Assembly (NCBI RefSeq): GCF_003386535.1
Contig: NZ_QTTN01000027.1
Coordinates: 1 to 64,000, forward strand
DNA length: 64,000 nucleotides
Source: Paenibacillus taihuensis
Lineage (GTDB): Bacteria; Bacillota; Bacilli; Paenibacillales; Paenibacillaceae
Direction: 5' to 3'
Below are positions 13,670-31,616 of the stretch, in pieces (the first letter of the stretch is position 1; every line of letters begins with the position of its first letter). Both the position numbers and the translations under genes were made by a program. The notes beneath the pieces were generated by a model. That model was not told the DNA's origin and did no database searches. It saw nothing but the letters and a program-made list of their open reading frames with translations.

Positions 13670-13776
13670 ATGTTTCTTCCTCCAATAGTTCGAAGGGATC
13701 TTCATCCCTATGGAAGCGGTCGAATATCAGCATTTTATCGACTTAGCCTCGAATTGTTCTGTAATGTTATCCTTCG

Positions 13777-14328
<552 letters not shown>

Positions 14329-14349: not shown

Positions 14350-15537
14350 CTAATTCGAATATAAGCCATGTGATACGGGCTCCAAACCCTCTAAAGCGAG
14401 CGTCATCTTCCTGCTCGCCCAACCGGAGTCGATCCGGTTTCTTAATTGCTGCCAAGTAGGTATACCCGTTACCGCGTCAAGTTTCTCGACATTGCAAGCC
14501 CCGGCACCGACGGCGCTTCTCATCGTATCCGCCATGGACAAGCCGGAATGCCAACCGGCGAGAAAGCCGGCAATCGTACAGTCGCCTGCCCCCGTCGTTC
14601 CCGCTACTTCCACGTTGAAGCAAGTCGCATAATACTCTTGTCCCAGCCATTCCGATTGCCAGCTTTCCGGCATTCTTCCTGCGATCTCACGGAAGCGGCT
14701 TGCGTCGGCGGTTGTCTTGGCATACAAGCCATGCTCACCAAGCTTAATGGCTACTACGGCAGCTCCCATGGAGATCAACTCATCCGTCAGCGATGCCAAC
14801 AGCTCCAGAGTTGCGAACGGGATCAATTCCCCTTCGCCGGCTTCGGCAGAAAGATGGTCGTAAACATCTCGGCGAAGCATGTAAACAATCTCGTCAAAGC
14901 TTGGCAGAAATAGATCCACATGCGGCAGGGCCCGACTTAATATGGTTCCCCAATCAGCTGCTCCGGCATCCGACGCTGGATCAGGCTTGGCCATGTCAAG
15001 AGAAACGGTAGCCCCGCTTGACTTTGCTTTTCGAAGCACGTCCGTGAGCTCCTTGCCCCCTTCCAGGTACATCTCTCTCATCAATGGAGGGTAACCAAAG
15101 TGGAACATGCCTGCATGCTTGACTGTATCCTCTACAACATCTGCTGCCTTGAACGTATCATTGGCACCGGTGCAATGCAGAAAAACCCGATCTACGTTCA
15201 ATGGATTAATAACAATCGTGTACGAGCTTGATTCCCCCTCGGCAACGATCATTGTTTCGGCTAGCTCCGGCGAATAGGAGCGAAGAATATCCTGAATGGC
15301 GCGGCCGAACAGATCGTCTCCGATTTTCCCCATTAATCGTACGGAGAAACCAAGCCGGTGCAGCGCCAGCCCCGTATTGGACACGGCACCACCAGTCGAC
15401 AGCATCACAGGTCCGGTATCCACCAGCTTGCCGGGAACAAGCAGCTCATGCAAAGCTCCCGATGTGGCTTTCAGCTCCGGGATGATGTCAAGACAAATAT
15501 GTCCGGCAACTACAATGCCCTCATTATGCGAGGCCAT
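14350..15537 (-). CDS. PfkB family carbohydrate kinase
   Basis: 395 residues. N-terminal glycine-rich sugar-binding segment (STGGAVSNTGLALHRLG) and C-terminal GTTGAGDC with the catalytic Asp, as in ribokinase/fructokinase/adenosine kinase. It is longer than typical PfkB proteins (~310-330). Its ribosome site GGGAGGG lies inside the end of the upstream dehydrogenase gene, whose stop is 1 bp away, so the two are tightly coupled. Substrate unproven; fructose or a keto-sugar made by the lyxose-isomerase homologue or the TIM-barrel isomerase is likely. Confidence 0.9.
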   Translation of the reverse strand: MASHNEGIVVAGHICLDIIPELKATSGALHELLVPGKLVDTGPVMLSTGGAVSNTGLALHRLGFSVRLMGKIGDDLFGRAIQDILRSYSPELAETMIVAEGESSSYTIVINPLNVDRVFLHCTGANDTFKAADVVEDTVKHAGMFHFGYPPLMREMYLEGGKELTDVLRKAKSSGATVSLDMAKPDPASDAGAADWGTILSRALPHVDLFLPSFDEIVYMLRRDVYDHLSAEAGEGELIPFATLELLASLTDELISMGAAVVAIKLGEHGLYAKTTADASRFREIAGRMPESWQSEWLGQEYYATCFNVEVAGTTGAGDCTIAGFLAGWHSGLSMADTMRSAVGAGACNVEKLDAVTGIPTWQQLRNRIDSGWASRKMTLALEGLEPVSHGLYSN

Positions 15538-15538
15538 A

Positions 15539-16696
15539 TTATCCCTCCCAATTCAGCTTGATTGTTTCTCCTTCTGCTTGTGACTCGAGTGCTGCCGTGA
15601 ACAGACGATGACTGTCCGCCGCTTCCTCAGGCGTCGCACAGCGGAATGACTGCAACATCTGATCGCCATTAACGATCTCATCACAGAACGCTGCCCACAT
15701 TTGAAGAATGGAATCCGAAAATCCAAATTCGAAGATGCCTCCGGTAATAGTAGGGTACGCAGACACGTAAGCTACATCCTCTACGTGCCAAGCCTGGCTG
15801 CCGCCTGGTTCATAGTTCAGATACGCAATCTGCTTCGGCTGCTTCGTGCTGTACTCCATCGACATTTTTGTGCCGGTCACTCTAATGAACCAAGTATTGG
15901 CATGGCCAGGCGCAATGCGCTTCATCGAAAGCATCATCGGGAACTGGCGACCCTGCGATTTGACGTCGCAAGCCAGAATCCCATTATCCCACGTCTCGCA
16001 GGAAGCAAAGCCACCTTTGCCATCCGGGCGTTTGTCAACAACCTTGGACAGCAGAGCTCTCACGCTGTTCGGTTTCCAGCCGAAGCGAAGAGGCAGATGA
16101 AGCACGTGGAGCCCCAGATCACCCATGCATCCGTATTCACCATTGCTTGCGACGATCCGTTTCCAGTTAATCGGTTTGTTCGGATTCAAATCACTGGAAT
16201 GCCAGAAACCGGCTTCAACCTCGATAATGTCGCCAAATCGTCCTTCCTCGACCCACTTGCTAATTTGGAACGCACCTGGGAAGAATGGAAACTCAGAAGA
16301 GCTTCGAACCACAACGCCAGGGTTTGCGTTTATAGCCTCCATAATCGCATCGTTGGCTGCTTTGTCGATGCCAAATGGCTTCTCGCCAAGCAAATGTTTG
16401 CCCGCATTGATGATATCTGAATAAATACGTTCATGAAGGTTGTGCGGAACCGCGCAATACACCGCGTCCACCTCCTCATCAGCAAGCAAATCCTTGTAGT
16501 TCGTATAAGAGCGCTTCACAGAAGGAACACTCGTCGTAAACCAGTTGATTGCCGACTGGTTCGCATCGCAGACAGCGACAATTCGAGGTTCAAAGTTTAC
16601 GTTTGTCAAGTGGCACCATCGTGCTACGGCGCTGGCAAACTCTTTGCCCATCAAGCCGCAACCGATTACGCCAAACCGAATCGTTTTTTTACTCAT
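15539..16696 (-). CDS. Gfo/Idh/MocA family oxidoreductase
   Basis: 385 residues. N-terminal Rossmann fold (FGVIGCGLMGKEFA), the GEKPFGID motif near residue 100, and the alpha/beta substrate domain with GCMGDLGLHVLHLPL. NAD(P)-dependent oxidation of a sugar or cyclitol hydroxyl is expected. GGAGGG lies within the end of the aldolase gene 5 bp upstream. It is only distantly similar to the dehydrogenase domain at 11972, so the operon has two different dehydrogenases. Confidence 0.9.
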   Translation of the reverse strand: MSKKTIRFGVIGCGLMGKEFASAVARWCHLTNVNFEPRIVAVCDANQSAINWFTTSVPSVKRSYTNYKDLLADEEVDAVYCAVPHNLHERIYSDIINAGKHLLGEKPFGIDKAANDAIMEAINANPGVVVRSSSEFPFFPGAFQISKWVEEGRFGDIIEVEAGFWHSSDLNPNKPINWKRIVASNGEYGCMGDLGLHVLHLPLRFGWKPNSVRALLSKVVDKRPDGKGGFASCETWDNGILACDVKSQGRQFPMMLSMKRIAPGHANTWFIRVTGTKMSMEYSTKQPKQIAYLNYEPGGSQAWHVEDVAYVSAYPTITGGIFEFGFSDSILQMWAAFCDEIVNGDQMLQSFRCATPEEAADSHRLFTAALESQAEGETIKLNWEG

Positions 16697-16701
16697 ATCG
16701 A

Positions 16702-17532
16702 TTATCCCTCCAAGAGCGACAAGGCGCTGCCTGCGTCTGCACCATCATGTACGATCGCCATAAGAGCCTTCGTCATGCCGGAAGGATTCGGATGCTGAAT
16801 GACGTTCCGTCCGTAAACGATACCGGAGGCGCCTTGTTCCATCAGTTTAACCGTACGTGTTACGATCTCCTCGTCAGAAGCTCTGCCGCCGCCGCGCACG
16901 AGTACAGGAATGCCGGAGGCTGCCTCGATGACCTTGTGGTAATTCTCCACCTCGTCCGTCGGATCTGCTTTAATGACATCGGCGCCCAATTCAACGCCTT
17001 GACGAACGAGTGGCATAATTTTATGCAGATCTCCGTCTACCATATAACCGCCTTTCTTATCATTCGGCAGCATAACAAGCGGCTCCACCATAAGCGTCAT
17101 GCCATATTGCTCGCAAGCCGTCTTCAGCTTCATTACGTTATTAACGCATTGACGGTGAAGCTCCGGTTGGTTTGGAAGCAGCAGTAAATTGACGCATACC
17201 GCCACAGCATCCATACGAACAGCGTGCTCCACTGCAGAATCAATCAATTCGCTAAACAGCTTCTCTGGCAGCTTGCTGCCATAAATGTTAGCTGCGTCCG
17301 TGCGAAGCACGAGACCTGGCTTTTCTTTGCCCGGAATTTCCTGCAAATGTCTAGCTTGGCCGAGGCTAAGCTGGATACAGTCTGGTCCAGCCTCAACAAT
17401 GGTTTGAACAGCCTCCTTCATATTCTCGATGCCGCCCAGGAACGAGTATTCGTTAAAAAATCCGTGGTCGATTGCCACATCAAAACATTTGCCCTGCGCG
17501 CTGAACATCCGATTTCGTCTTGCTTTTGTCAT
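16702..17532 (-). CDS. Class I aldolase, DhnA/DeoC-LsrF superfamily
   Basis: 276 residues, a complete TIM barrel. VAIDHGFFNEYS at the start is the phosphate/substrate loop of DhnA-type aldolases, GADVIKADPT carries the Schiff-base Lys, and IPVLVRGGGRASD is the C-terminal phosphate-binding loop. Cleaves a phosphorylated keto-sugar; the exact sugar is unknown. In the context it would act after the PfkB kinase. GGGAGAGAG precedes the ATG. Confidence 0.85.
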   Translation of the reverse strand: MTKARRNRMFSAQGKCFDVAIDHGFFNEYSFLGGIENMKEAVQTIVEAGPDCIQLSLGQARHLQEIPGKEKPGLVLRTDAANIYGSKLPEKLFSELIDSAVEHAVRMDAVAVCVNLLLLPNQPELHRQCVNNVMKLKTACEQYGMTLMVEPLVMLPNDKKGGYMVDGDLHKIMPLVRQGVELGADVIKADPTDEVENYHKVIEAASGIPVLVRGGGRASDEEIVTRTVKLMEQGASGIVYGRNVIQHPNPSGMTKALMAIVHDGADAGSALSLLEG

Positions 17533-17586: not shown

Positions 17587-19764
17587 TCACTTCATCTCAA
17601 TGCCGCGTTCACGAAGCACAAGGTGCGCGTACAGAATAAGACCCGAGCACCACGTGTGAGCCAAACCTAGAATCATGCCCTTCGGTTGGAAGCAGTTCGT
17701 ATTATAATAACGTTCGGTTACCATGCCCTTATAGGCATTAAAGTCACCATCTTCCCTCGCAATGAACTGCAGAAAGCACAAGAGATGATCTCGCATACGT
17801 TCGAAGTAGTAGGAATCTCCCGTAGCGTCAAATAATTGGAGCATTTCAGGCATGCATACCAGACCATAATTATGGAGATGATTATTGGCTGGTGATGCAT
17901 TGTCTGCCCCTCTGGTGTGATATTCATACCTCGCCAACAACGAATGCTCGGGGAATTTGATATTATAGCTCCACCTGAAGGTCATGGTCCAATCAGCGGC
18001 AGAAGCCGCACAACGAAGCCAGTTGGCCTTCTCTTCGCTTTCATCGATTCGATAGAGTGACATATACGCCATCACCGCGTTGTAACCATCCTCCGAAGTC
18101 GCGGTCAGATGCACGTCTTCCGGCGCTCCATAGATGTATTCGTCTTCCACGTACGAAATATAAGCTTGCCCCGCGAGCAGTGCCTTCTCCTTATAGCGCG
18201 AATCGCCTAGCAGTTCTGCTGCTTCGACTAGAGCCGGAATCCACAATAAACCTCCGGCTCCTTCCCAAACTTCGACAACGCCTGTCTCCACATGGTAATA
18301 GGAGCCAAAGTGACCGTCTTCTCGCTGTGCCCGGCACGCAAACTCGAGATTGCTTCTTATGGCCGTCTCCCAAGCAGGATGAGTTCGTCCAGCGTTTCGT
18401 TCAAACGACAACGCACGTATCATGAACAAAGTCGCTTCGCTGACCGTCCTCGCCTGAACCCAATGCGGTTTCGGATTCCAGCCTGTGCCCCATCCGTTCT
18501 CAAGCGTCCATTCCGGCCAGAACGTGCCAAGCGGCGCGATCCCCGATGCAATCTTGTTCAGCACTCTTCTTCCCGCTTCGTAATAATCTTTGTTGCGATT
18601 TTCTGCTCCGTAACGCATAAGAGAATAAGCATAGGGCGCACCGCTTACCCATGCGACGTGCATATGCGGGCGATCCGCCTTGCCCTGCGCACCTGTATTC
18701 AACTCCCGGTCGAATGCGATTGTTTCATACAACACATCATACTCCGGTTTGTAATGCCAATTAAACAAACCATAGGCGGTTAATTCAGCTGCCTTAGAGT
18801 CGCTCATCCAAGGATTGAGCGGATGCTGCTCTTTGTTCACATCATATAATGAACGAATGAAAGGATCATAGCCATGAAGCTCTGGACCTGCAAGATACAT
18901 GCGGAAACGGAACGTGAGATCGTCTCCCTTCTCGAATTTCATGCCCGGAATATCTGCGGGCTTCGAGGTTGGGAAACCGTAGAAAACAGCCGGTTCTTCT
19001 GTATAAGGAAAATGAAGGCGCAGGAAGGTTTGTCCCTTCCTTCGTCCAAAAGCGACTCCGGCTTGATTTGTACCACCACGGCTTGAGGCAAAGGTTTCTT
19101 CCGTAGATATCGCCGTCATCATGCCGTCCGTCCAAACGAGAGCAGCAGGAAGACTGCAGCGGTCTGCCCGGAATGACCAAGCATCGGCTGTCATCGATTC
19201 CGCATCATAACAATGCTCCTCATACCTTGGGTAGATACGATGGCAGGAAGGGTCTCGATTGTCTTTGTAGAACATGCCTGGCACCATCCATCGGGGATTA
19301 CCGCTGTCCTGCACCTCCAGCTGGAACCCTGCCGTAGCATGGACAGGAAACTCTCCAGAGTATACCAGCTTAACGTGCCCTTCCAGGTAAACAGTCCTCG
19401 AACCGATCAAGCAGCGGATTGAGGCTGTATAGTGCCAGTCCTCAGCACCGTCTTCGTTGGGATTGAATACGGCTCCAAACAGCTCCAGACTGTCGCCTGG
19501 CAGCATAGTATGCCGTTCGCCTTTTTCCCAAGACATGCGCAAGCCGTCTTCGTTTACCCACGACATTCTCCATATCGGAACCTTATGAATATGGTCGAAC
19601 ATGCCGCCTTCACCAAGAATCTGCAAAGGAGCATCCATGGAAACAGTGATCTCTTCCCCGATATTGCGATGAAATCGAATTTCTATGGAACCATCAGGCT
19701 TATAAACAGGAGTAAAGGCAGGCAGCGAGTCCAACGCAATACCACTATCATTGATCATCCTCAT
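17587..19764 (-). CDS. Large (alpha/alpha)6 six-hairpin glycosidase-like protein
   Basis: 725 residues from the ATG at 19764, which overlaps the preceding stop as ATGA and follows GGGGAGGAG. Residues ~1-300 are mostly beta strands; residues ~330-720 show repeated helical hairpins with Trp/Gly/Tyr-rich turns (WEGAGGLLWIPALVEA, NNHLHNYGLVCMPEM) as in six-hairpin glycosidases and lyases. No signal peptide, so intracellular. I do not recognise a numbered GH family with confidence and cannot name catalytic residues. Translational coupling to the TIM-barrel gene suggests a joint task. Confidence 0.75.
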   Translation of the reverse strand: MRMINDSGIALDSLPAFTPVYKPDGSIEIRFHRNIGEEITVSMDAPLQILGEGGMFDHIHKVPIWRMSWVNEDGLRMSWEKGERHTMLPGDSLELFGAVFNPNEDGAEDWHYTASIRCLIGSRTVYLEGHVKLVYSGEFPVHATAGFQLEVQDSGNPRWMVPGMFYKDNRDPSCHRIYPRYEEHCYDAESMTADAWSFRADRCSLPAALVWTDGMMTAISTEETFASSRGGTNQAGVAFGRRKGQTFLRLHFPYTEEPAVFYGFPTSKPADIPGMKFEKGDDLTFRFRMYLAGPELHGYDPFIRSLYDVNKEQHPLNPWMSDSKAAELTAYGLFNWHYKPEYDVLYETIAFDRELNTGAQGKADRPHMHVAWVSGAPYAYSLMRYGAENRNKDYYEAGRRVLNKIASGIAPLGTFWPEWTLENGWGTGWNPKPHWVQARTVSEATLFMIRALSFERNAGRTHPAWETAIRSNLEFACRAQREDGHFGSYYHVETGVVEVWEGAGGLLWIPALVEAAELLGDSRYKEKALLAGQAYISYVEDEYIYGAPEDVHLTATSEDGYNAVMAYMSLYRIDESEEKANWLRCAASAADWTMTFRWSYNIKFPEHSLLARYEYHTRGADNASPANNHLHNYGLVCMPEMLQLFDATGDSYYFERMRDHLLCFLQFIAREDGDFNAYKGMVTERYYNTNCFQPKGMILGLAHTWCSGLILYAHLVLRERGIEMK

Positions 19765-20618
19765 TTCTTCTCCTCCCCAGTCGCCTTTTCCCAACATTCC
19801 TCAGCAAGCTTTTTCATTATGAGCGACGCTTCCCAACGATTCAGGGGCTCCGTGTATACTCCTGTAGCATTCTCTACAGTTATCGCATATGGAGGAGGAC
19901 CAAGCTCCGTCACAAACGGGAATACCTCGCCAGGTTGCAAATCTTGAAGCCTATGCTTCATGCCTGTTGTCCACCAACGGACAAAATGATTTGTAATTGG
20001 CAGTTTGGTAACTCCATCTTTCTCCCAAGGAACTTGTATCTGTTGACTATTGGATATGCGCCCATGAATACAAGAGGTTCTCTCCAGCAGCTTGGCGAAA
20101 GCCTGCTCCGCTTCAGCGCCTGGCTCCTGCATCTCTCCGGAAAGAACATAATGAGACAGATCGATAGTTAAACGAAGCGAAGGCAGCGCATTCACGTATT
20201 CGACCGTTCGCAGCAAATCCTGTGTTATGCGTCCACGATGCGTTTCCACAAAGAAAGGAAGGGAGGAGACGGCCGCCTCCTCCATCAAACCATCCAGAAG
20301 GCGCAAGGCATCATCGCCTACAACAAATGAATCCATAACTTGAGCATTCATGTACAGCGCACCTGCATGTTTCGCCCTGGCCGCCAATTCGCTAATATCA
20401 CCTCTGCGACCAGGAAAGGCTTGCGTAGCGAAAGATAGACTGTATCGATCCAGAAGTCGGAAATATTCCTTCTCTCGTTCCGGCTCGGGCATATTGTCAT
20501 AAACGCCTCCATAACCCGCTGCGGAGATTCGTTCCAATTTTTCTTCCAAGCTCCATTCCCGGCCATTCTCACCCAAGCCTTCCATCGACCACATGGCTTG
20601 CTGTACGAGCAACCTCAT
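19761..20618 (-). CDS. Sugar phosphate isomerase/epimerase-type TIM barrel
   Basis: 285 residues of the xylose-isomerase-like/AP_endonuc_2 superfamily. Metal-site residues are in the expected strand ends: FVETHRG (Glu), TIDLSHY (Asp, His), CIHGRIS (His) and VTELGPP (Glu). Such proteins isomerise or epimerise sugars, and some relatives cleave 3-keto-glycosides after oxidation by a Gfo/Idh enzyme. Both ends use 4-bp ATGA overlaps, with the ferredoxin before it and the six-hairpin gene after it. Confidence 0.85.
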   Translation of the reverse strand: MRLLVQQAMWSMEGLGENGREWSLEEKLERISAAGYGGVYDNMPEPEREKEYFRLLDRYSLSFATQAFPGRRGDISELAARAKHAGALYMNAQVMDSFVVGDDALRLLDGLMEEAAVSSLPFFVETHRGRITQDLLRTVEYVNALPSLRLTIDLSHYVLSGEMQEPGAEAEQAFAKLLERTSCIHGRISNSQQIQVPWEKDGVTKLPITNHFVRWWTTGMKHRLQDLQPGEVFPFVTELGPPPYAITVENATGVYTEPLNRWEASLIMKKLAEECWEKATGEEKK

Positions 20619-20926
20619 TCCACAGCACTGCCTTCTGATGCTCGTTTGCGCCGTTGCAGCTTCCCTAATACCGCATCACTGTTCGCCGTAGACATGCAGA
20701 GGAGTCGCCTGCCATTCTCTCGTTCTTGCTGGCTGATCATGCAAATTTCCTCGCCTTCTTGGGTCACGCTGCCTTCTTTTATCTCGAAGAGACACGTTCG
20801 GCACGTTCCGTTTCTGCAGGAATGATTAATTGTTACGCCTTGGCGTAGAGCTGCATCCAGCAGCAGCTCTCCTTGCTTGGCCATGAAGCTCTCGCCCGAT
20901 TCCAATGTAATCCGATATTCACTCAC
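20615..20926 (-). CDS. Plant-type [2Fe-2S] ferredoxin
   Basis: 103 residues from a GTG at 20926; GAGG is 9 nt upstream, better spaced than a TTG at 20941. Cluster ligands: C37, C42 and C45 in HSCRNGTCRTC, plus C77 in LLC. An extra Cys at 62. The start overlaps the stop of the diiron gene (GTGAGTGA) and the stop overlaps the next start, so it is translated in a coupled chain. Its place points to electron delivery to the diiron protein. No reductase gene is in the operon; a housekeeping one must serve. Confidence 0.88.
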   Translation of the reverse strand: MSEYRITLESGESFMAKQGELLLDAALRQGVTINHSCRNGTCRTCLFEIKEGSVTQEGEEICMISQQERENGRRLLCMSTANSDAVLGKLQRRKRASEGSAVE

Positions 20927-22202
20927 ACGCCATCGCCTCAAATTTCACGATTTTTTGACGCAACTCCGAGAGAAATGGCTCGTAATCCCATCTTTGATGA
21001 GCTTGCTCGATCCAAGCATTCCATGTCTCCCTGACTTCATCCTTTAAGTCCTCGAGCTTATCGTTATCTCCTCCAAGACGGTGTAAACACCACTTATAAC
21101 CATATTGAAGATGGATGCTTTCGTCCGCCCAATCATAGTCGAAGTCTTGCGAGCTGGCTGTGTCGCCCATTTTTTCAAACTTGGCCTTGAACGTGCTTTT
21201 GAGTCCCGGGCCGTTCGTTTCGAAATCATGAAGCAAGCATAGAAGCGCAAGCTCGCCCATATGCGATACTGACTCGTAATGGTCTCCGACAACCGGGAAG
21301 TCAATGCCCGTCCGGAAGCCCCAAGCCTTCATGCGCTGCTCGCCCATCATACAGTGGCGGGATTCGTCAAAGCACCAGCGAGCCGTTTCCAGATAGAACT
21401 CCCAAGGCATGTCATCCCACTTCCAAAGCACCGTTCCCGGCACTTCTGCCGCCCAAATCTCATTGACATGGTTGATACCGCCCCAAATTTGGTGTTCGAG
21501 GAACGTATTCCATTCAACCGGGGGCATATGGTAGATTGCCTTGCGGAAACGCGGATCGCGTGCTGGAACGAGCGGAGCGGTATAAGGCTCTCGAACGAGC
21601 GCTTCGGAAATACTTACTGGCCCTTTCGATGCTTCCGTTCCGAACAAGCCGCCTATTTCTTGCAGAAGCTCAGACAGCGCCTGTGTTCTTGTATGGTCCT
21701 CGTTCGATATAACTTCTGGAAGCGCATCATAGATCGCACGGATTTCGTCCAGTTGGGCGTGTATCTCGGACGAAAATCTTCTCATAAATTCGTAGGTGGG
21801 AGCATCGTCAAGAGGATCCGATTCTGTCAGGTAGGTATCATAAGCCTCTGCGAGCGCCTGCTTCGTGACGAAGTAGACTCCAACGATTAATTCCGCATCA
21901 TTCAAACTGCGGATTAGCTGCTGAAGGTATTGGGTCAAAGCCTCATCATGATCCTGATCGACATCTCTTCTTGGATAACGAAGCTCTAATACGCGTGAGC
22001 GCAGCGCGTCCGCACGCAGTGAGTCTTGCCAAATATGGTAAGGAAGCTTCTTTTTGAGCTCCCAATCAGATACGCTGACCAAATATCCGCCTAGCGTTCT
22101 CATACATTCTCTCTCGGTGTAATACAGGCGCTTCAGGACTGCGGAAGCGTCATCGACTGCCTTCCGTCCTGCTTCTCCCATAACGATTACTTTCTCTTCC
22201 AT
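20919..22202 (-). CDS. Ferritin-like putative diiron oxygenase (DUF455/MiaE-like)
   Basis: 427 residues, almost entirely helical. The C-terminal half has a complete diiron ligand pattern: Glu near 248-253, E280-S-R-H283, Glu at 317 or 328, and E361-S-I-H364. The N-terminal half (1-165) looks like a degenerate second ferritin-like bundle (HIWQDSLRADALRSR) without ExxH. This layout is that of DUF455/MiaE-like ferritin superfamily proteins, some of which hydroxylate using O2 and a ferredoxin. It is directly coupled to a [2Fe-2S] ferredoxin inside a sugar operon. I infer oxidation, hydroxylation or O-demethylation of a sugar or aglycone; the substrate is unknown. Family name is by pattern, the metal motif is seen. 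Confidence 0.75.
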   Translation of the reverse strand: MEEKVIVMGEAGRKAVDDASAVLKRLYYTERECMRTLGGYLVSVSDWELKKKLPYHIWQDSLRADALRSRVLELRYPRRDVDQDHDEALTQYLQQLIRSLNDAELIVGVYFVTKQALAEAYDTYLTESDPLDDAPTYEFMRRFSSEIHAQLDEIRAIYDALPEVISNEDHTRTQALSELLQEIGGLFGTEASKGPVSISEALVREPYTAPLVPARDPRFRKAIYHMPPVEWNTFLEHQIWGGINHVNEIWAAEVPGTVLWKWDDMPWEFYLETARWCFDESRHCMMGEQRMKAWGFRTGIDFPVVGDHYESVSHMGELALLCLLHDFETNGPGLKSTFKAKFEKMGDTASSQDFDYDWADESIHLQYGYKWCLHRLGGDNDKLEDLKDEVRETWNAWIEQAHQRWDYEPFLSELRQKIVKFEAMACE

Positions 22203-22265: not shown

Positions 22266-23342
22266 TTAAACAACCTCTAGATCATCTACAGAGCCCAGGC
22301 TTGGATGCGGAGCGTGCGGCTCCAGCTGATACCAGAATGCGGTCGAGCTGATATCATCCCGAAGCGGGTAGTAACGTCCATGCGTACGCCAGCCAAGCGC
22401 TTGAATGGTTACTTTCAGCTCTTCTTCGAAACGAATCGGATCCATGACATGCCATCTGTACATCCCGAACCTTTGGTTCGCCCGGTACAAGCCGTCCGGC
22501 TTAATGACCTGATGCATGCCTAGAAATGGAGTCGAATACGTCGTGTACTGGTTGTTCATATCCCAGTTCCAAGCCCCTCCGAAATAGTCCTCGGTTCCTG
22601 TCCCGCAGATAGTAGGGTATTCGCCGTCGCCGTCTAAATAAAACTTGACCTCGCCTTCTCCCCACCAATTGTTGCTGTTTACCTGCCAAGCCAAGTAAGT
22701 GCCTACGTAATGTCCTCTGCCTTTCACACCATCCAGTATAGTGTGAACCTCTTTGAATTTTAAAGGATTGCTGCGTCTCCACTGTGCGTGGAAGTAAGCA
22801 GCATCTTCCGGTATTTCCGTTAAGGCGTAGTCAATCTGGTAATAGAGCACCACATTCTCATGGCTCATATTCTCCATTTCGATTCGGGCTGTCTTGCGGA
22901 ATGGCATTTCCCAATAACAGTTGAAGCCGCCCGCAGGATTCACCGAAATCGGCAGTGAGTTCACGTTGCTTCTCTCGCACCAGCCGTTTGCGAAGAAATC
23001 ACCGACCGGTACGCGCACAGAGGGCTCCTTCTCATCATCCCAATACATGTTGATCACGAGCGAACGCCAGCGCTCCGGCGGGCAAGTCAGCCATATATGC
23101 TGAATGACGCCAGGACCTTCAATTTCTGCCATCGTAAATGTTTGGTTGCCCTCCACCCAGACAGAAGGTGAAATCTTCCATCCAACTCCTAGGTCTCGGG
23201 CACAGGATGCTCCTGTGCCTTCTGTAGCCATTGCGCCTTTGCCCTTTTCTCCGGTAAAGTTTTCAGGGCTGATCGATCTTGTTTTGGCATTTGATACACG
23301 AGATAAATTGCCAAGTCCCATCCCAAGTCCATTGAAGGTCAT
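22266..23342 (-). CDS. GH172 (DUF2961) family glycoside hydrolase
   Basis: 358 residues, a single DUF2961 jelly-roll domain: GPGVIQHIWLT near residue 80, VPVGDFFANGW, GFNCYWEMPFRKTA and the strongly conserved GTGTEDYFGGAWNW near residue 255. The family is now GH172, with known alpha-D-fructofuranosidase, difructose-dianhydride and alpha-D-arabinofuranosidase activities. No signal peptide, so it acts inside the cell on an imported substrate. It implies that the substrate has a furanoside besides any mannose-like sugar. GGGAG precedes the ATG by 10 nt. Confidence 0.88.
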   Translation of the reverse strand: MTFNGLGMGLGNLSRVSNAKTRSISPENFTGEKGKGAMATEGTGASCARDLGVGWKISPSVWVEGNQTFTMAEIEGPGVIQHIWLTCPPERWRSLVINMYWDDEKEPSVRVPVGDFFANGWCERSNVNSLPISVNPAGGFNCYWEMPFRKTARIEMENMSHENVVLYYQIDYALTEIPEDAAYFHAQWRRSNPLKFKEVHTILDGVKGRGHYVGTYLAWQVNSNNWWGEGEVKFYLDGDGEYPTICGTGTEDYFGGAWNWDMNNQYTTYSTPFLGMHQVIKPDGLYRANQRFGMYRWHVMDPIRFEEELKVTIQALGWRTHGRYYPLRDDISSTAFWYQLEPHAPHPSLGSVDDLEVV

Positions 23343-23357: not shown

Positions 23358-26036
23358 TTAACCTGTTTGCACAAGTATTGTCATGATTTCTTTTGGTTTG
23401 ACCTGCACTGTAACAGTATTATTTTCAGTTTGCAGTTCTTCGGTCGGCTGTTCCATCAAATCAGCTTTCCAGGCTCGCGAGATACCCGCGGCCAGAGTCA
23501 AGCAAGCGGATGTAGGCACATCCAGAGCATTGTAGAAGCGGACCGCGATTTCGGAGCCGCCAAGACGTTTCTTGACAGCGCTCAAGACAGCGCCATCTCC
23601 TTGAAGCATAACGAAGCTTGCTTCTCTCGGAAGTCGCGGCTTGCCTGCGTCTGGATCCGGTCTGCTGAACAAATCACCGATCTCGCTGTCCTGCACCCAT
23701 GGTCTGCCCGAAGCCCATTTATCTTCTCTAACCGGAACGACATATGATCGCAGTCCGTGATGGTAAGCTTCTGCTTCCCTGGCGAGGATTGCCGCATTGT
23801 CAGAAGCGCCGAACGGCCTGAGCGCAAGCTCAAACGTATAGATGCCTTGGCATTGCCCAAGCGGATTGTCATCATTCTCGTGCGGAAGCGGATTTGGACG
23901 TCCAAAGATCGTTCCAACGCTTCGGATCAGCGTCAAATCGAGTGCCGTATCAGCTTCAGTAAGCTCATATTCGTGCAATCCCTTATTGTAAACGGCCATG
24001 CCTTGCTCCCAGCCTGCCGCTGCCCACTTCCAGTTTGGCTGTGAGTTGGCATTGCGAACGTATTCCTTTCCAGATGAAGCTTCTCGGCGAAGCACGTCGA
24101 ATTGACCTCCTGCCAAGGTGCCTGGCACCGCATTCGCAATCGGGAACCGAACGCGTAATCGATGATCCTTCGCCGCGTTGTCCAGCTCGATGCGGACATC
24201 CAAATGTCTTGCATGCCGGAGCAACCCGAGCATCGCTTTTATGGGATATCCAACCTTGTCTTCCGACCTTGATGCTCCGCCCGTCGCGAGACTCGCCGGC
24301 AGCTCCCATTGCCAGCCAATTTCGACTGCTTGGTAGCCCTCAGTCGTAACCGTCGCTTGGACTTGTGCCCTTAACTCGGCGGACGTGAGCGACTTATCAC
24401 CATGCAAATATTTGAATACGTACAAGTCTCCCGCATCCGCATCGTCTACGAAAATAAGCTGTTGCTCATACGTCTCTCCAGTAATCTTATCAAACAGATT
24501 CAGACTCCCATTCGGGTTTACCGTCACACGCAAGAATTCATTCTCCAGCTTGCTTTCTTCATTCTGCGGCGCTTCGAAAGCTGCAGGAAGTTGACTTGGG
24601 ATAACCTGATAAGAAGTGTAGCCCTGCCCCGGCACCTGCTCCGCGGCAAATCCGATAGTATAACGATCTACCGGCAGTTCCGTGGGTAAGTTAATAGGGC
24701 TGAGTCTTTGTTTTCTCGTTTTGGTCTGGCTAATAATTTGATAAGGAACCTCCTCGCCCTTCGCATTAAAGATACGGAACGATTGAACGCTGTCTTTCTC
24801 CAGAAAATCAATGCACTGCTCGATCCATCCTGACAATGGCAATGTGGAGGGGTTGAACACGGCGATCAGTTGATCGTCATCTCCCATTCCCTCCTGGTTG
24901 ATTCCTCTCAGCAGGCTCAGCGCTTGCCGCCGAAGAGTTTCTTCGCCAGCCTCCATCAAAGCCTCAAATCGGTCCATCATATGTTCATGCACCTCGTCTT
25001 GGCTGCATCCACAAATGCTGTCGTGGGGATGGTTCTTCATCAGCGATTTCCATAAATACGTGAGATAGGCTTCCGGATAGCTGCCTAAACCGGACATTCT
25101 TGCCCAAACCGCAAGCGGTTCGATCCACTTCTCCAACAGATCCTGTGCCTTTACGTTTTCCTGCTTAAGATAAACGCGCGCTGACAGTGTGCCTGCCAGG
25201 ATGTGATAATCGTCTCCCGCCCTCATCTCGCCTTTCTGAACGGCTGGCGACAAGAGCTCCGCCTCTACTCTCCGGATATGTTCTTCCAGAGTCGTATGGA
25301 GAATTTCGACCTCATCGCCAAGTGTTTCACGTAGTCCCTTCAGAATACCGCTTAAGTTCTCCTGCGCTTCCAAATGGTCGACGCCGTTCATCAGCAAATA
25401 ATTGTTGGTTTGTTTACGTTCGTCGATTTTGGCTTGAATTAGCTTTAATGTTTTAAGCGCCTTGGCTGGATCTTCGGGTATGCGCTGCGCATTGTTGTAC
25501 CAGTTCGGCATGAAGATCGCCGTTATTCGGCTATCGTCTGCACCCTCCCATAGGAATTCCTGCTCTTGATGGGATTTGAAATTGTCGTAGCCTCTTCCAA
25601 ACACGACATTGCCGATGCCGAAACCGCGAAGAATTTGCGGGATTTGCGAGATATTGCCGAACTGGTCGGGCAAGTAACCTACCTTCATCTCTTTGTCGAT
25701 TTGACGAGACATGGTGATGCCTGTCTGCAAATTCCGGATAGTTGCTTCTCCACTTGTCAAATATTCATCATTTTGCAGATACCAAGGCCCTATAAGGATC
25801 CTTCCTTCGCGAATTAGCTTCTCCAGACGTTCTTTGTTTTCCGGATGAATTTCGAAATAGTCTTCTAAAACAATGGTCTGACCGTCCAAATGGAATACTT
25901 CGAATTCAGGATCAGACTCAAGTAACTCAATCAGCCCGTTGATCAGGTCAACTAGTCTGAAACGGAACTGTTCAAAGGTCAGGTACCATTCCCTGTCCCA
26001 GTGGGTATGCGAAATCACGTGAAAGCTTGGTTTCAT
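23358..26036 (-). CDS. GH38 alpha-mannosidase family protein (second copy)
   Basis: 892 residues from the ATG at 26036, which follows GGGAGAGGG; the frame runs 78 codons further into the neighbour without a start signal. N-terminal SHTHWDREWY, GYLPDQFGNISQIPQ with the presumed nucleophile Asp, and HPHDSICGCSQDEVH are the zinc-site and catalytic motifs of GH38. The C-terminal beta domains are complete. Intracellular. Known members release alpha-mannose, including 2-O-glycerate-mannosides in the MngB subgroup. It starts 35 bp after the other GH38 gene but differs widely in sequence. Confidence 0.93.
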   Translation of the reverse strand: MKPSFHVISHTHWDREWYLTFEQFRFRLVDLINGLIELLESDPEFEVFHLDGQTIVLEDYFEIHPENKERLEKLIREGRILIGPWYLQNDEYLTSGEATIRNLQTGITMSRQIDKEMKVGYLPDQFGNISQIPQILRGFGIGNVVFGRGYDNFKSHQEQEFLWEGADDSRITAIFMPNWYNNAQRIPEDPAKALKTLKLIQAKIDERKQTNNYLLMNGVDHLEAQENLSGILKGLRETLGDEVEILHTTLEEHIRRVEAELLSPAVQKGEMRAGDDYHILAGTLSARVYLKQENVKAQDLLEKWIEPLAVWARMSGLGSYPEAYLTYLWKSLMKNHPHDSICGCSQDEVHEHMMDRFEALMEAGEETLRRQALSLLRGINQEGMGDDDQLIAVFNPSTLPLSGWIEQCIDFLEKDSVQSFRIFNAKGEEVPYQIISQTKTRKQRLSPINLPTELPVDRYTIGFAAEQVPGQGYTSYQVIPSQLPAAFEAPQNEESKLENEFLRVTVNPNGSLNLFDKITGETYEQQLIFVDDADAGDLYVFKYLHGDKSLTSAELRAQVQATVTTEGYQAVEIGWQWELPASLATGGASRSEDKVGYPIKAMLGLLRHARHLDVRIELDNAAKDHRLRVRFPIANAVPGTLAGGQFDVLRREASSGKEYVRNANSQPNWKWAAAGWEQGMAVYNKGLHEYELTEADTALDLTLIRSVGTIFGRPNPLPHENDDNPLGQCQGIYTFELALRPFGASDNAAILAREAEAYHHGLRSYVVPVREDKWASGRPWVQDSEIGDLFSRPDPDAGKPRLPREASFVMLQGDGAVLSAVKKRLGGSEIAVRFYNALDVPTSACLTLAAGISRAWKADLMEQPTEELQTENNTVTVQVKPKEIMTILVQTG

Positions 26037-26071
26037 GGCCAGTCCCTCTCCCTTTTTTTTATCATTTGAGG

Positions 26072-28777
26072 CTATTCGCCGGCAAAGCTGAATCGAATAC
26101 TCCGAATTTGTTTCGGCTCGAATGTTACGGTAATGTGCTTGCCCGCATGTTGAATGGATTCCGATTGCCTTTCTTGCAGGTTGGTCATTGCTGCTTGCGC
26201 AATAGGATCTTTGAATGTTAGAACAGCCTTTTGAGCTTCCGAAGCCGGATTGTACAGTCTTACAATCCAACCCTTTCCGTCTTCAGCCCGCTTCAGAGCA
26301 CTAAGTGACAAGTTACCCTCTGTCAATCGAAGGAAGGAGCACGCTTCAACAGGAAGCTTTCCTTGCTTGCCCGGTGTTCCTTGATAATAACGTAAGCCGG
26401 CGCGGTAAGCGTCCGCCTGTCGGACAAGTTCACTGTCCGATATTCCTTCATGAATAACGATCGCGTAATTATACGTCATCGAGCGCAGGCACTGCGATCC
26501 CGGTGTTTCGAGTGCCGGCCCGGCACCAGCGTTAATCTTCAGCGGATCTGGTGAACCCAGATGCCCGACGGAACGCAGCAACGTCAGAGCCAATGTTCTG
26601 GCAGAATCAGAACATATCTCATACTCCGTCAGATCGCCTGACAAGAGAGCAAAGCCCTTGCCATTCTCGGAAACGTCTACGAAGCCATGCATTGGATACG
26701 TCGTGGGTGCGTCCTCCACCCACACTTCATCATTGGGTTGCTGGACAAACACCTTACGCTTCACAACGTCGAACTGGGATCCTGCTCTTGATTGATCCGT
26801 TTGAACATTCGTCGGGAACAAGACACGCAAGCGATGATCCTTTACGCTATTGACGACAGTCGTTCTTATTTCGACTCGTCTCGTATGTCGCAAGAGCGTC
26901 ACTTCTGTCTCCACGCTCACTCGATTCTTCTCCTTGGTTCTGGCGTTGCGGTCACCAGTCAGCGACAGAGGAAGGAGCATAGATCGTGAAATGCGAATTA
27001 TAGCAAAATCCGGTGTATCCGCGATGACGGAGATCGCGCATTCTTCTCCGCCGCCAACAAACACTTCGTCATACAACGGAGGGGAGTAAACGTATCCATC
27101 TCCTCGGTCGCCGCCGTCCTCGAGCGTATGTTGTCCCGGATATACACGACCGGAGTGTTTATCTGTCAGATCGAATGTGCCGTCGGAACGAATGTCCACT
27201 TTGATCCACTCATTCTCCATTGTTCTAGGCCGAGTGATCAGACTGTTATCCCAAACCTTCGATCTGCGAGTAGGTCTTGCCAATATGGTTGTATAACCTT
27301 GAGCTGGCACATACGGCATATAGAAACGAACCTTAGCAGCTTGCCAATATGGAATAAGCGGATGATGATCATAAGCATGTTTGGCAACTGCTCGTTTGCG
27401 GCTCTCCAGCACCTGCGAGGGAATCAAAGCACCATCTATACCCCTCAATTCCAGATTTCTGATTTCCTCTCCGTCCGGGAATAAAATGTCCGCTTCTACC
27501 ATGCCTTCTCCATCCTGTAGTCCGGTATGGAATACATGTATTGGTACCGCACTTTCATCCAAACCTTCTGTGTTAATTTGAGCGCTGATGCCATGCATCG
27601 CTTCATAAGCGAGTTGGGTGCTGATTTCCGACGACCATTCGAATCTCGTTTCATTCTGATCATGCACCTCATCAATGCTGCAACCGCAAATGCTATCATG
27701 CGGATGGTTCTGCAGCAGATATTTCCATGACTGGCGAAGCAGTTCGTAAGGATAATCAACCCCGCCTATTCGTGATGACCATACTGATAGTGGCTCTGCC
27801 CAGCGCTCTAACATTACTTGAGCGCGCTCATTCTGCATCTTCAAATACATGCGCGTCGACATGACATTTGCCAATACGAAGTTATGATGACCCAAAGGTG
27901 AATAGTTCGTGCTACGAAGCTCCCCCTGCAACGATTGCAGTTCTTCGCGGTGCGCTTCCCCCTTCACCGCTTGCACATATTGATCCACAGTGCTGTGGAT
28001 GAAGGTGAACCCTTCGAAATGCTCGTTCATCCACTCCACCATCTCGACAAGATTCTCTTCCGGCATCGTATGATCCGTTCCGTTCATTAAAAGTAGATGC
28101 TTAGTTGTATTTCGGACGGTTAATTTATCCAACTCCGTCTTTATACGTTCGAGCATCTCTTCTTTGGCACTAGGCAAAGACAATGCATTACTGTAGCCAG
28201 CATGAATCGGCAAATGATTGGCAAGCAATTTACTGCCATCTGCTCCCTGCCATATAAACTCCGATGATTTCTGCTCCGTTCCTTCAGCTCCGCCGTCAAT
28301 TCCACGCCAGAATACGATGTTATCAATTCCGAATCCTTGCAGGAGCTGCGGCATCTGACTGATGTGCCCGAATATATCCGGCAAATAACCAAGCTTCACC
28401 CCTCTCCCGAATTCGTCTGCCATGCTTAAGCCCATCTCAAGGTTGCGAATAATCGACTCCCCGCTTACGAGAAATTCATCCGGCATGACGTACCATGGCC
28501 CGACATCGATTTTCTCCTCCGTAATAAGCTTCTTTAGTATTTCCTTATTGGCTGGCTTAATTTCCAAGTAATCTTCAAGGATGATCGTTTGACCGTCGAA
28601 ATGAAAAGAAGGATAATTTTTGTTTTCTAACAAATACTGCAATCTATCCATGAGCCTAACGAGTCGAATCCGGAAATTCTGATATGATAGATACCATTCT
28701 CGATCCCAGTGCGTATGGGGAACGACATGGACGATCATGTCTCCATTCGGTGGTTTCTTCTTGAACGATTTATTCAT
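26072..28777 (-). CDS. GH38 alpha-mannosidase family protein (first copy)
   Basis: 901 residues; GGAGG 6 nt before the ATG. PHTHWDREWYLS, GYLPDIFGHISQMPQ and HPHDSICGCSIDEVH carry the zinc ligands and catalytic Asp. First gene of the catabolic operon, divergent from the AraC gene with a promoter candidate at 28817-28845. Same domain order as the following GH38 gene but clearly diverged, so different linkage or position specificity is likely. Confidence 0.94.
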   Translation of the reverse strand: MNKSFKKKPPNGDMIVHVVPHTHWDREWYLSYQNFRIRLVRLMDRLQYLLENKNYPSFHFDGQTIILEDYLEIKPANKEILKKLITEEKIDVGPWYVMPDEFLVSGESIIRNLEMGLSMADEFGRGVKLGYLPDIFGHISQMPQLLQGFGIDNIVFWRGIDGGAEGTEQKSSEFIWQGADGSKLLANHLPIHAGYSNALSLPSAKEEMLERIKTELDKLTVRNTTKHLLLMNGTDHTMPEENLVEMVEWMNEHFEGFTFIHSTVDQYVQAVKGEAHREELQSLQGELRSTNYSPLGHHNFVLANVMSTRMYLKMQNERAQVMLERWAEPLSVWSSRIGGVDYPYELLRQSWKYLLQNHPHDSICGCSIDEVHDQNETRFEWSSEISTQLAYEAMHGISAQINTEGLDESAVPIHVFHTGLQDGEGMVEADILFPDGEEIRNLELRGIDGALIPSQVLESRKRAVAKHAYDHHPLIPYWQAAKVRFYMPYVPAQGYTTILARPTRRSKVWDNSLITRPRTMENEWIKVDIRSDGTFDLTDKHSGRVYPGQHTLEDGGDRGDGYVYSPPLYDEVFVGGGEECAISVIADTPDFAIIRISRSMLLPLSLTGDRNARTKEKNRVSVETEVTLLRHTRRVEIRTTVVNSVKDHRLRVLFPTNVQTDQSRAGSQFDVVKRKVFVQQPNDEVWVEDAPTTYPMHGFVDVSENGKGFALLSGDLTEYEICSDSARTLALTLLRSVGHLGSPDPLKINAGAGPALETPGSQCLRSMTYNYAIVIHEGISDSELVRQADAYRAGLRYYQGTPGKQGKLPVEACSFLRLTEGNLSLSALKRAEDGKGWIVRLYNPASEAQKAVLTFKDPIAQAAMTNLQERQSESIQHAGKHITVTFEPKQIRSIRFSFAGE

Positions 28778-28869: not shown

Positions 28870-29796
28870 ATGACGGAATCTAGAAGCTATCACCAATTGT
28901 CCAAAGAAATTCAACGTTGTCCGCTCGCGTTTGAACTGGGGGCTTTGCATATCGATATCATCAACTTTGAATATGTGCCTCCCGGGCCTTACTGGGTCGT
29001 ACCCAATCACCAGCATTCATCCTACGAATTCCATTTCATATCCACAGGCAAAGGGTATGTCACGCTCGAAGACAAGACGTTTACCGTAACGAAGAACCAA
29101 TGTTACTTGACCGGTCCACATGTCTATCATTCTCAAAAAACGGACGAGCATGATCCTATGGACGAATGCTCCTTACAGTGCCAGATTCGCTTGAATGCCA
29201 GCGCGCCAAAACATGAGCTGGAGGAAGCCGAGCGAATCCTGAAACTTTTGAACCGTCCTAACGGAAGTAACCATGTCGACACCAACGGATGCATCGGTAT
29301 TTTTTTTGGCGTGCTGAGAGAAATACAAGAAAAGCGAATCGGCTATCTTATGGCGATCAAACAGCGAATGATGGAACTGTTCATAGCCGCCGTACGCAAC
29401 TTGCATGGAGATAAACCAAATGAACCTATTGAGCTGCCGATGAATCATTCCGACCACTCAATCGTGCGCCACTGCATATTGTTTCTCGAAGATAATTATC
29501 AGAACCAGATTACTCTAGAAGAGGCAGCAGCTTCCATTCACTTCAGTCCCAGACACTTGGGCAGGGTATTTAAAACGATTACCGGTCGGACTGTCCATGA
29601 ATATTTGATGGCACTACGGCTAAATCGCGCCAGGCAATTACTTGAAGTGAGCGATGAATCACTTGAACAGATTGCACAGGAATGCGGCATTACCAATGGC
29701 AGTTACCTAAATACCTTGTTCAAGAAACATTTTGGCATCAGCCCGAATCAGCACCGCAAGAACTGCGTCTTGCAGAAATGCAACGTTAACCCTTAA
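28870..29796 (+). CDS. AraC family transcriptional regulator
   Basis: 308 residues. The first ~140 residues are a cupin-like ligand domain (HQHSSYEFHFISTGKGYVTL), and the last ~100 hold two AraC helix-turn-helix motifs (ITLEEAAASIHFSPRHLGRVFK and EQIAQECGITNGSYLNTLFK, quoted only in part). It is divergent from the catabolic operon and converges with, overlapping by 11 bp, the importer genes. Most likely the sugar-responsive activator of both. AAGGTGG precedes the ATG. Confidence 0.92.
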   Translation: MTESRSYHQLSKEIQRCPLAFELGALHIDIINFEYVPPGPYWVVPNHQHSSYEFHFISTGKGYVTLEDKTFTVTKNQCYLTGPHVYHSQKTDEHDPMDECSLQCQIRLNASAPKHELEEAERILKLLNRPNGSNHVDTNGCIGIFFGVLREIQEKRIGYLMAIKQRMMELFIAAVRNLHGDKPNEPIELPMNHSDHSIVRHCILFLEDNYQNQITLEEAAASIHFSPRHLGRVFKTITGRTVHEYLMALRLNRARQLLEVSDESLEQIAQECGITNGSYLNTLFKKHFGISPNQHRKNCVLQKCNVNP

Positions 29797-30670
29797 TCCC
29801 ACTGAACGTAATACCTTGAATAATGTAACGCTGGAAGAACAGGAATAAAGCCATCGGCGGGATCGTGATTAAGGTCAGGATCCCGAACTGAACATTCACC
29901 CCGACGCGCCCCATATTTGTTTTATAAATTGCACTGTAAACTGCAGTGGCAATCGGCCAGTTCTCGTTCTTTAGAATCAGAAGGGGCCAGAAGAAATCTT
30001 TCCAAACGTAAGTAAAGCCAAAGATGATCAGCGTAGCAATTACCGGCTTCGTCAGAGGAAGCATAATCTGCCAATAAACCCTGAACTCCGAAGCGCCGTC
30101 GATTCTCGCAGCTTCGAACAAATCTTTAGGTATGCCGAGGAAGAAGCTGTATAACAAAAATAATCCAAACCCATCGGCAGCTCCTGGCAGCCAATATGCC
30201 CAATACGTACCAAGCAGGTTCGTGCCCAATATCGGAAGGCTTTGAAGCGTCAAATAGTTCGGAATCATTAGCACCATGCCCGGTACCATAAGCGTAGCAA
30301 GGAAATACAAAATAAAACCTTTCTTGAGAGGAACCTGCAATACCGCCAACGAATAAGCAGCCAGCGTTATGATAATGATTTTGATGATCATAAAGCCACT
30401 GAAGAGCAATAGAGTATTCCCCATGTACTTCGCAAAGTTAAGACTTGTCCATGCCTCTATATAATAGGAAAAATGCCACTCGGACGGCAGTAGAGCAGGC
30501 GGAAACTGAAGTGCTTCTTTCTCCGTCTTGAACCCATTAAGAACAACCCAGAGTAATGGATATATCATGAATATTGCAACCGCAACCAAGCTTAACACAG
30601 ACAAGACATATCCTAGCTTGACTGCTGGTCTCTTCATGTCGAAATCGGATATGATGGAACGTCCGCGCAT
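29786..30670 (-). CDS. ABC sugar importer permease, CUT1 MalG type
   Basis: 294 residues, six membrane helices; the EAA loop EAARIDGASEFRVYWQIMLP faces the ATPase. It follows the other permease by 2 bp. The C-terminus overlaps the end of the araC gene on the opposite strand. No ATP-binding subunit is encoded nearby, so a shared MsmX/MsmK-type ATPase is presumed, which is common in Firmicute CUT1 importers. Confidence 0.93.
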   Translation of the reverse strand: MRGRSIISDFDMKRPAVKLGYVLSVLSLVAVAIFMIYPLLWVVLNGFKTEKEALQFPPALLPSEWHFSYYIEAWTSLNFAKYMGNTLLLFSGFMIIKIIIITLAAYSLAVLQVPLKKGFILYFLATLMVPGMVLMIPNYLTLQSLPILGTNLLGTYWAYWLPGAADGFGLFLLYSFFLGIPKDLFEAARIDGASEFRVYWQIMLPLTKPVIATLIIFGFTYVWKDFFWPLLILKNENWPIATAVYSAIYKTNMGRVGVNVQFGILTLITIPPMALFLFFQRYIIQGITFSGIKG

Positions 30671-31593: not shown

Positions 31594-31616
31594 TCTAATC
31601 ACTCCTCCCCGTTAAT

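Follow-up and report, generated by a model that had tools for sequence, protein, structure and literature searches.

The 64,000-nucleotide stretch of Paenibacillus taihuensis DNA analysed here (contig NZ_QTTN01000027.1, positions 1 to 64,000; hereafter the window) holds, amid sugar genes, the gene of a ferritin-like diiron protein of the DUF455 family (PF04305), which overlaps the gene of a plant-type [2Fe-2S] ferredoxin. Judged from their sequences, the two proteins probably form a dedicated two-component, O2-using diiron oxygenase or oxidase that acts on an imported sugar or glycoside. The diiron protein has a full set of ligand residues and the ferredoxin its four cluster cysteines, the two genes overlap, they stay together in all examined members of one clade of the family and sugar genes surround them. 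This pairing suggests an oxygen-dependent reaction in sugar catabolism that has yet to be described, and, with a ferredoxin as strict partner, an anonymous ferritin-like family yields a candidate two-component oxygenase that can be tested. The original prediction, made from the window sequence, had recognized the parts of a two-component oxygenase inside a glycoside operon. Those parts are strengthened here by the full ligand set, the dedicated ferredoxin and the sugar-gene setting, while the link with glycoside hydrolase (GH) families GH38 and GH172 does not hold as a rule.

Ligands, cluster cysteines and gene overlaps

Profile searches, as suggested with the original prediction, place both proteins above the curated cut-offs: the diiron protein scores 39.6 bits against PF04305 (gathering cut-off 34.3), with the match beginning at residue 248 (profile position 74), and the ferredoxin scores 55.1 bits against PF00111 (cut-off 21). 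PF04305 also matches all 106 aligned relatives of the diiron protein at E<=1. The ligands follow the ferritin-type order Glu / ExxH / Glu / ExxH: the two ExxH motifs predicted earlier (E280-H283 and E361-H364) stand at exactly those residues, and E248 and E328 bring the predicted diiron ligand set to completeness. All six occur unchanged in each of the 66 proteins aligned (65 distinct), among which identity to the window protein falls to about 20% for some, and they are also invariant in the 106-row alignment. This invariance rules out a chance occurrence of the motifs.

The ferredoxin has a CX4CX2CXnC motif. With its start at the GTG at 20926, the cysteines are C37, C42, C45 and C77, as had been claimed; counted from the upstream TTG of the open reading frame (ORF) list, they are C42/47/50/82. 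The GTG start is deduced from relatives, in which the first cysteine falls at residue 37–39 (start chosen per relative), and it agrees with the 103-aa database record P0121. The four cysteines are invariant in the 16 ferredoxins that were aligned out of 18 found. Both gene overlaps in the window are also as foreseen, i.e. 8 nt between the diiron stop and the ferredoxin start, and 4 nt (ATGA) between the ferredoxin stop and the start of a TIM-barrel gene. Overlaps of 4 to 38 nt (start chosen for each) occur in 17 of the 18 pairs, with ten at exactly 8 nt; the remaining pair abuts. A search with the ferredoxin returned 17 proteins. For 8 of them, the window's own included, the longest contig of the source record is as long as that of a listed DUF455 relative (88280, 623755, 443394, 7981, 397479, 36861, 8101785 and 357294), which hints, short of proof, at shared contigs.

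Pairing within one clade

Overlapping sets of genomes were searched at differing thresholds: 22 of the genus, 295 and then 394 of the family, 392 of the order and 398 of the phylum. At E<=1e-20, the DUF455 protein is matched in 29 of the 295 genomes of the family; at E<=1e-120, the counts are 13 of 394 for the family and 14 of 392 for the order. In the phylum draw (E<=1e-40), the window's own genome is the single match among 398. That genome contains three family members, which are divergent paralogues. One of the other two (contig C10) is also ferredoxin-linked and lies beside a sugar-binding protein and permeases (neighbours assigned by eye).

Of the 50 matches listed in the search of 295 family genomes, the window and the retrieved regions cover 42, with the 8 weakest left out. 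Two duplicate rows were dropped (L002, duplicate of L042, and L134, duplicate of L001), and L063, L068 and L074 were left out because the simple gene caller did not recover their DUF455 gene, which gave a final set of 53 genes. A ferredoxin was counted as adjacent if it had the cysteine pattern and lay at most 200 bases away with the same orientation, a criterion that does not register electron carriers of another type. On this basis, a ferredoxin is adjacent in 18 of 18 genes of one supported clade and in 0 of 35 outside it. In a tree of 66 proteins made by a quick method, all 18 ferredoxin-adjacent genes fall into one 19-row set (SH-aLRT 95), the additional member being a database protein known without its genomic context. 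The placement of L048, on a long branch, is less sure. The paired proteins have diverged to 42–48% identity. Because the pairing is universal inside one clade and absent outside it, these sequences suggest a single origin or a small number of origins, after which the two genes stayed together as the proteins diverged. An overlapping pair kept through such divergence argues for the ferredoxin as electron donor of the diiron protein.

Alternatively, the ferredoxin might only maintain or load the diiron cofactor, in the way that YfaE serves ribonucleotide reductase, and not donate electrons in turnover. Against the YfaE model, the window ferredoxin scores 25.9 bits, a weak match (cut-off 75), and 35 of 53 relatives lack a linked ferredoxin of this type. 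However, clade-wide pairing and gene overlap speak against such a role, and the YfaE match is weaker than those to several oxygenase reductase models, among them AntC, BenC and MmoC (41.8, 38.2 and 37.6 bits), although these NCBIfam matches are likewise all below cut-off. We regard cofactor maintenance as an unlikely sole role.

Three further observations concern the wider family. A plasmid search found a DUF455 gene (L076, 8434–9567) on the conjugative Geobacillus plasmid pGS18, beside transposase and mobile-element genes. Plasmid searches yielded no view of the surroundings of the Chloroflexota-type relatives P0040 and P0054, and one made with a Thermomicrobiales protein gave no match. In a single-contig genome (G077:C1:5516862-5518042), a family member is detected as two matches that overlap; two in-frame stops interrupt the first, and the gene is apparently a decaying copy.

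Sugar genes around the pair

In the window, sugar genes occupy the minus strand from 33107 down to about 13777, and a single AraC-type regulator gene lies among them in divergent orientation. The glycoside-operon setting proposed earlier is correct for this locus: two GH38 genes and a GH172 gene (PF11175) lie upstream of the diiron gene on the same strand.

We then compared neighbours within 5 kb of the 53 DUF455 genes with those in 37 random regions trimmed to equal size (Fisher test). Forty control regions had been drawn, of which one with a DUF455 gene and two overlapping target regions were excluded; at least two of those used start 1.5–2.5 kb past a target region. Several gene types are more frequent near the family: AraC regulators (41/53 loci versus 9/37 controls, p 1e-6), sugar-binding lipoproteins (21/53 versus 4/37, p 0.004), PhyH oxygenases (15/53 versus 0/37, p 0.0003), the TIM-barrel gene (7/53 versus 0/37, p 0.04) and GH172 (6/53 versus 0/37, p 0.04). 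GH38 is found at 2/53 loci and in 0/37 whole control regions. A cruder whole-region comparison (42 loci versus 37 controls) gives 11 versus 0 for PhyH, 6 versus 1 for GH172, 10 versus 3 for Gfo/Idh and 5 versus 0 for the TIM barrel.

A neighbourhood survey had been proposed as a check on whether the pair is conserved with GH38 and GH172. Neither is a fixed partner, since each lies beside 1 of 18 pairs, that of the window; sugar genes in general still surround the pairs. Within 5 kb, GH172 occurs at 1/18 paired loci, 5/35 unpaired loci and 0/37 controls (1/37 over the whole 19.5-kb controls), and four of the five unpaired loci look like one orthologous locus. A Pfam count over whole genomes finds GH172 in 16 of 23 of these genomes, with up to 13 matches each. 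For GH38 the counts are 1/18 paired, 1/35 unpaired (L073) and 0/37 controls. At L073 (9063–18767), two GH38-like ORFs lie near the gene of a distant DUF455 relative that has no ferredoxin partner.

Selected large neighbours were scanned at seven paired loci besides the window, i.e. eight in total. The carbohydrate genes found are GH42 (L001), GH35 (L135), GH78 with a GH31-like protein (L048), GH2 (L138), GH43 (L133), a sulfatase (L132) and a heparinase II/III-like S-layer protein (L137); in one of the scans, no family was assigned to two of ten neighbour proteins. At four of the loci (L001, L135, L048 and that of the window), the pair and a glycosidase gene are direct neighbours with the same orientation. 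At L137, L138, L133 and L132 the carbohydrate gene is about 1 to 4 kb away, and it is on the opposite strand in the last three. The carbohydrate genes thus differ among the eight scanned loci, and the conserved unit is the diiron–ferredoxin pair. A constant pair beside changing carbohydrate enzymes suggests a target group that is common to many sugars.

The gene order diiron–ferredoxin–TIM barrel recurs in L137 and L139. A TIM-barrel subfamily with ETHRxR and DxSH motifs lies directly after the ferredoxin or DUF455 gene at L137 (11079–11870), L139 (8476–9267) and L143 (4531–5397); the TIM-barrel members of L137 and L065 have no NCBIfam match. The window member scores 16.1 bits against PF01261 (cut-off 31.1), and its E125, D153, H156, H185 and E238 are conserved across 7 aligned sequences, an alignment that found nothing in the PDB at E<=0.01.

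The window operon may serve a glycan with D-arabinofuranose and mannose, with lipoarabinomannan-type glycans as a candidate, because of its gene content and because the closest solved relative of its GH172 protein is an exo-alpha-D-arabinofuranosidase (8ic8, E 5.6e-143 over residues 11–357). The GH172 enzyme ExoMA1 of Microbacterium acts on mycobacterial lipoarabinomannan and arabinogalactan, and 8IC8 is named once in the paper on it (PMC10509167).

The same architecture could act on another substrate, hydroxylating an aglycone or N-oxygenating an amino sugar after release by a glycosidase. The window operon, however, finishes with genes for a sugar isomerase, a kinase and an aldolase, and no aromatic or amine catabolic genes were recognized in it. 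We think this substrate class improbable.

Fold and family relationships of the diiron protein

The full-length AlphaFold2 model has a pLDDT of 95.9, and five of the six diiron ligands lie inside its helices. From the model, the N-terminal half is predicted to fold as a second ferritin-like bundle with no conserved ligand set; among its D/E/H/C positions, D60 alone reaches 90% conservation. The structural re-alignment list was taken up by N-domain matches, which makes the absence of families from it uninformative. When the diiron protein was compared with PDB sequences, no match reached E<=1. With a profile of the family, the best PDB match in the diiron half is a helix (DExxHxxxGxxW) of aldehyde-deformylating oxygenase (ADO), a weak match at E 0.031.

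One alternative is ADO-like chemistry with the architecture favoured here, i.e. C–C cleavage (deformylation) of a sugar-derived aldehyde in place of C–H or methyl-ether oxygenation. Membership of the ADO family was rejected: the window protein has no match to its profile (PF11266, Ald_deCOase) at E<=0.1, and 6 of 106 relatives match at E<=1, with a best E of 0.052. In addition, the ADO structural match sits on the ligand-free half, and no acyl-ACP reductase-like partner was noticed by eye. Deformylation therefore seems a poor prospect. Both this and the aglycone or amino-sugar alternative share the architecture of the oxygenase reading, and their probability overlaps with that given to it.

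Least probable of all is a role in oxidative stress or iron handling, in which a ferritin, Dps, rubrerythrin-like or YciF/DUF892-like protein would be reduced by the ferredoxin and have no sugar substrate. In its favour, the structure matches of a low-confidence C-domain model (E>=5.5e-3) are mostly ferritins and bacterioferritins, and 11 of 106 members match DUF892 (best E 2.5e-5). Against it, the genes are embedded in sugar clusters with regulators, genomes hold several divergent paralogues (three in the window's) and no rubredoxin domain was matched.

A possible mechanism and its weak points

In the oxygenase reading, a general cellular ferredoxin reductase would pass electrons to the dedicated [2Fe-2S] ferredoxin, which in turn would reduce the diiron centre of the DUF455 domain for O2 activation, the simplest function for a complete diiron site. 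The ligand-free N-terminal bundle probably helps to form the substrate pocket or serves as the docking site of the ferredoxin. The sugar or glycoside would be imported by the ABC transporter and oxidized by the diiron enzyme before or after glycosidase action, and the TIM-barrel protein, dehydrogenase, kinase and aldolase would complete the breakdown of the oxidized product. The oxidized group is probably one common to many sugars. By analogy, an O-methyl ether, released as formaldehyde, is the leading but unproven guess. In this scheme we infer the electron transfer from ferredoxin to diiron centre, the reductase, the activation of O2, the substrate and the reaction.

A bolder proposal, which we hold as tentative and rather doubtful, is that the pair is a general oxidative deprotection module of the Paenibacillales. 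As a non-haem counterpart of a marine P450 system, it would remove O-methyl or similar groups from many sugars in successive glycan operons, which would be the first function for DUF455.

Several results weigh against these proposals. Regarding the surroundings, (i) ATP-binding cassette (ABC) permeases are not significantly enriched (18/53 versus 7/37, p 0.15); (ii) the p-values are overstated, as the loci are mutually related and the neighbour profiles were seeded from target loci; and (iii) PhyH is very common (23 of 23 genomes, 1 to 79 matches each, 43 in the window's genome), which weakens its co-location as a clue and leaves it as moderate support only. Regarding electron supply, one locus speaks for the oxygenase reading: at L061 (6094–10176), genes for a fatty-acid-desaturase-like protein, a Rieske ferredoxin and a reductase for ferredoxin lie directly upstream of a ferredoxin-less DUF455 gene. 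This arrangement is only suggestive, as the electrons there may serve the desaturase-like protein. Against the reading, a reductase of this type is within 5 kb of 0/18 pairs (other reductase types were sought by eye only). Regarding the fold, E248 lies at a two-residue break between helices 234–246 and 249–261 of the AlphaFold2 model, and the C-domain modelled alone, from three sequences only, has a low-confidence pLDDT of 53.4. In Foldseek comparisons with the PDB, neither the full model (best 0.14) nor the low-confidence C-domain model (best 5.5e-3) reached E<=0.001. Regarding O-demethylation, no formaldehyde-handling gene was noticed in the operon by eye, and the ribulose monophosphate pathway enzyme HxlA has no match over the cut-off in the window's genome. 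Finally, electron transfer, ferredoxin–diiron contact, convergence of the ligands, and the use of metal and O2 are predictions.

Other features of the window

Coordinates of the pair and of the surrounding genes are collected in Table 1. The 736-aa protein of the same gene run has no Pfam or NCBIfam match at E<=0.1 and no PDB sequence match at E<=0.01, and is possibly an undescribed glycosidase. For the first-listed GH38 ORF, the true start is probably further in than the listed TTG, shortly upstream of an HTHWDREWY stretch. The best PDB matches of the Gfo/Idh/MocA dehydrogenase are low-scoring and include putative, inositol and L-glucose dehydrogenases. Beyond the run, a 577-aa ORF (11972–13705) has a Gfo/Idh dehydrogenase as its second half and a ThuA-like first half (by eye); its best NCBIfam resemblance is to inositol 2-dehydrogenase, below the cut-off. 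A promoter and terminator scan found sites no more numerous than in shuffled sequences.

Table 1. Predicted features of the diiron–ferredoxin locus in the window
Feature	Position	Strand	Basis
Two-domain ferritin-like protein, 427 aa	20919..22202	(-)	PF04305, ligands, AlphaFold2, fold matches
N-terminal bundle lacking a conserved ligand set	about residues 10-191		fold matches
C-terminal DUF455 diiron domain	about residues 230-420		ligands E248, E280, H283, E328, E361, H364
Plant-type [2Fe-2S] ferredoxin, 103 aa	20615..20926	(-)	PF00111; GTG start at 20926
Xylose-isomerase-like TIM-barrel protein, 285 aa	19761..20618	(-)	PF01261 below cut-off
GH172 (DUF2961)	22266..23342	(-)	PF11175, 333.7 bits
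GH38 alpha-mannosidase ORF	23358..26270	(-)	PF01074, PF09261, PF07748, PF17677
Second GH38 alpha-mannosidase	26072..28777	(-)	family scan
736-aa protein, family unassigned	17587..19797	(-)	family and PDB scans
DhnA/LsrF-type class I aldolase	16702..17532	(-)	PF01791; PDB 2qjg (LsrF)
Gfo/Idh/MocA dehydrogenase	15539..16696	(-)	PF01408
PfkB-family sugar kinase	14350..15537	(-)	PF00294
D-lyxose/D-mannose isomerase	13777..14325	(-)	PF07385; PDB 7nzo E 4e-66, 2y0o E 6.8e-66
AraC-type regulator, divergent; used as profile seed	28870..29796	(+)	sequence inspected by eye, no family-library scan
Sugar ABC importer, permease 1	29786-30670	(-)	PF00528
Sugar ABC importer, permease 2	30673-31602	(-)	by eye
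Sugar ABC importer, solute-binding lipoprotein	31683-33107	(-)	PF01547

Comparison with known systems

The window protein is a DUF455 protein in its C-terminal half, where it matches PF04305 above the curated cut-off, but it differs by its second, N-terminal ferritin-like bundle without a conserved ligand set and by its clade-wide link to a ferredoxin. No bacterial function for DUF455, PF04305 or COG2833 was found in the literature covered, which left out most subscription papers; DUF455 is mentioned in an SCOP superfamily assignment (PMC4520260).

A parallel is cyanobacterial ADO, a solved ferredoxin-driven enzyme whose ligands are E32; E60, H63; E115; and E144, H147 (PMC4286721). The E / ExxH / E / ExxH order is the same in the window protein, and ligand order, spacing and invariance in the diiron family match this solved diiron oxygenase; the ferredoxin-driven O2 chemistry of ADO is of the sort proposed here. 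A short helix motif is also common to ADO and the family profile. By contrast, ADO has one bundle, not two, and the window protein is surrounded by sugar genes rather than fatty-aldehyde genes.

Membership of the bacterial multicomponent monooxygenases was rejected, as no hydroxylase alpha-subunit profile matches the window protein at E<=0.1, and none is among the 25 families listed, out of 33, for the 106 relatives. Unlike enzymes of the toluene 4-monooxygenase type, the window enzyme is a single chain. No effector protein or FAD–2Fe-2S reductase was seen beside the pairs by eye in the gene tables, where the targeted search was for the L061-type reductase only. A double bundle with one half metal-liganded and the other ligand-free is nevertheless instructive beside the toluene and methane monooxygenase hydroxylases.

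Two-component ferredoxin-driven diiron oxygenases are already known; the novelty lies in a DUF455 protein with two bundles that is linked to a ferredoxin within sugar clusters. A functional precedent comes from porphyran degraders, in which a cytochrome P450 with a ferredoxin (and a reductase) demethylates 6-O-methyl-D-galactose (PMC10033563). The likeness lies in an oxygenase, predicted in the case of the window, joined to a ferredoxin in polysaccharide degraders. The porphyran system is a haem system with a reductase in marine bacteria, whereas that of the window is non-haem diiron with no reductase seen beside the pair. If the pair does act on sugars, soil Firmicutes would use O2 chemistry within glycan catabolism, as marine bacteria do with P450.

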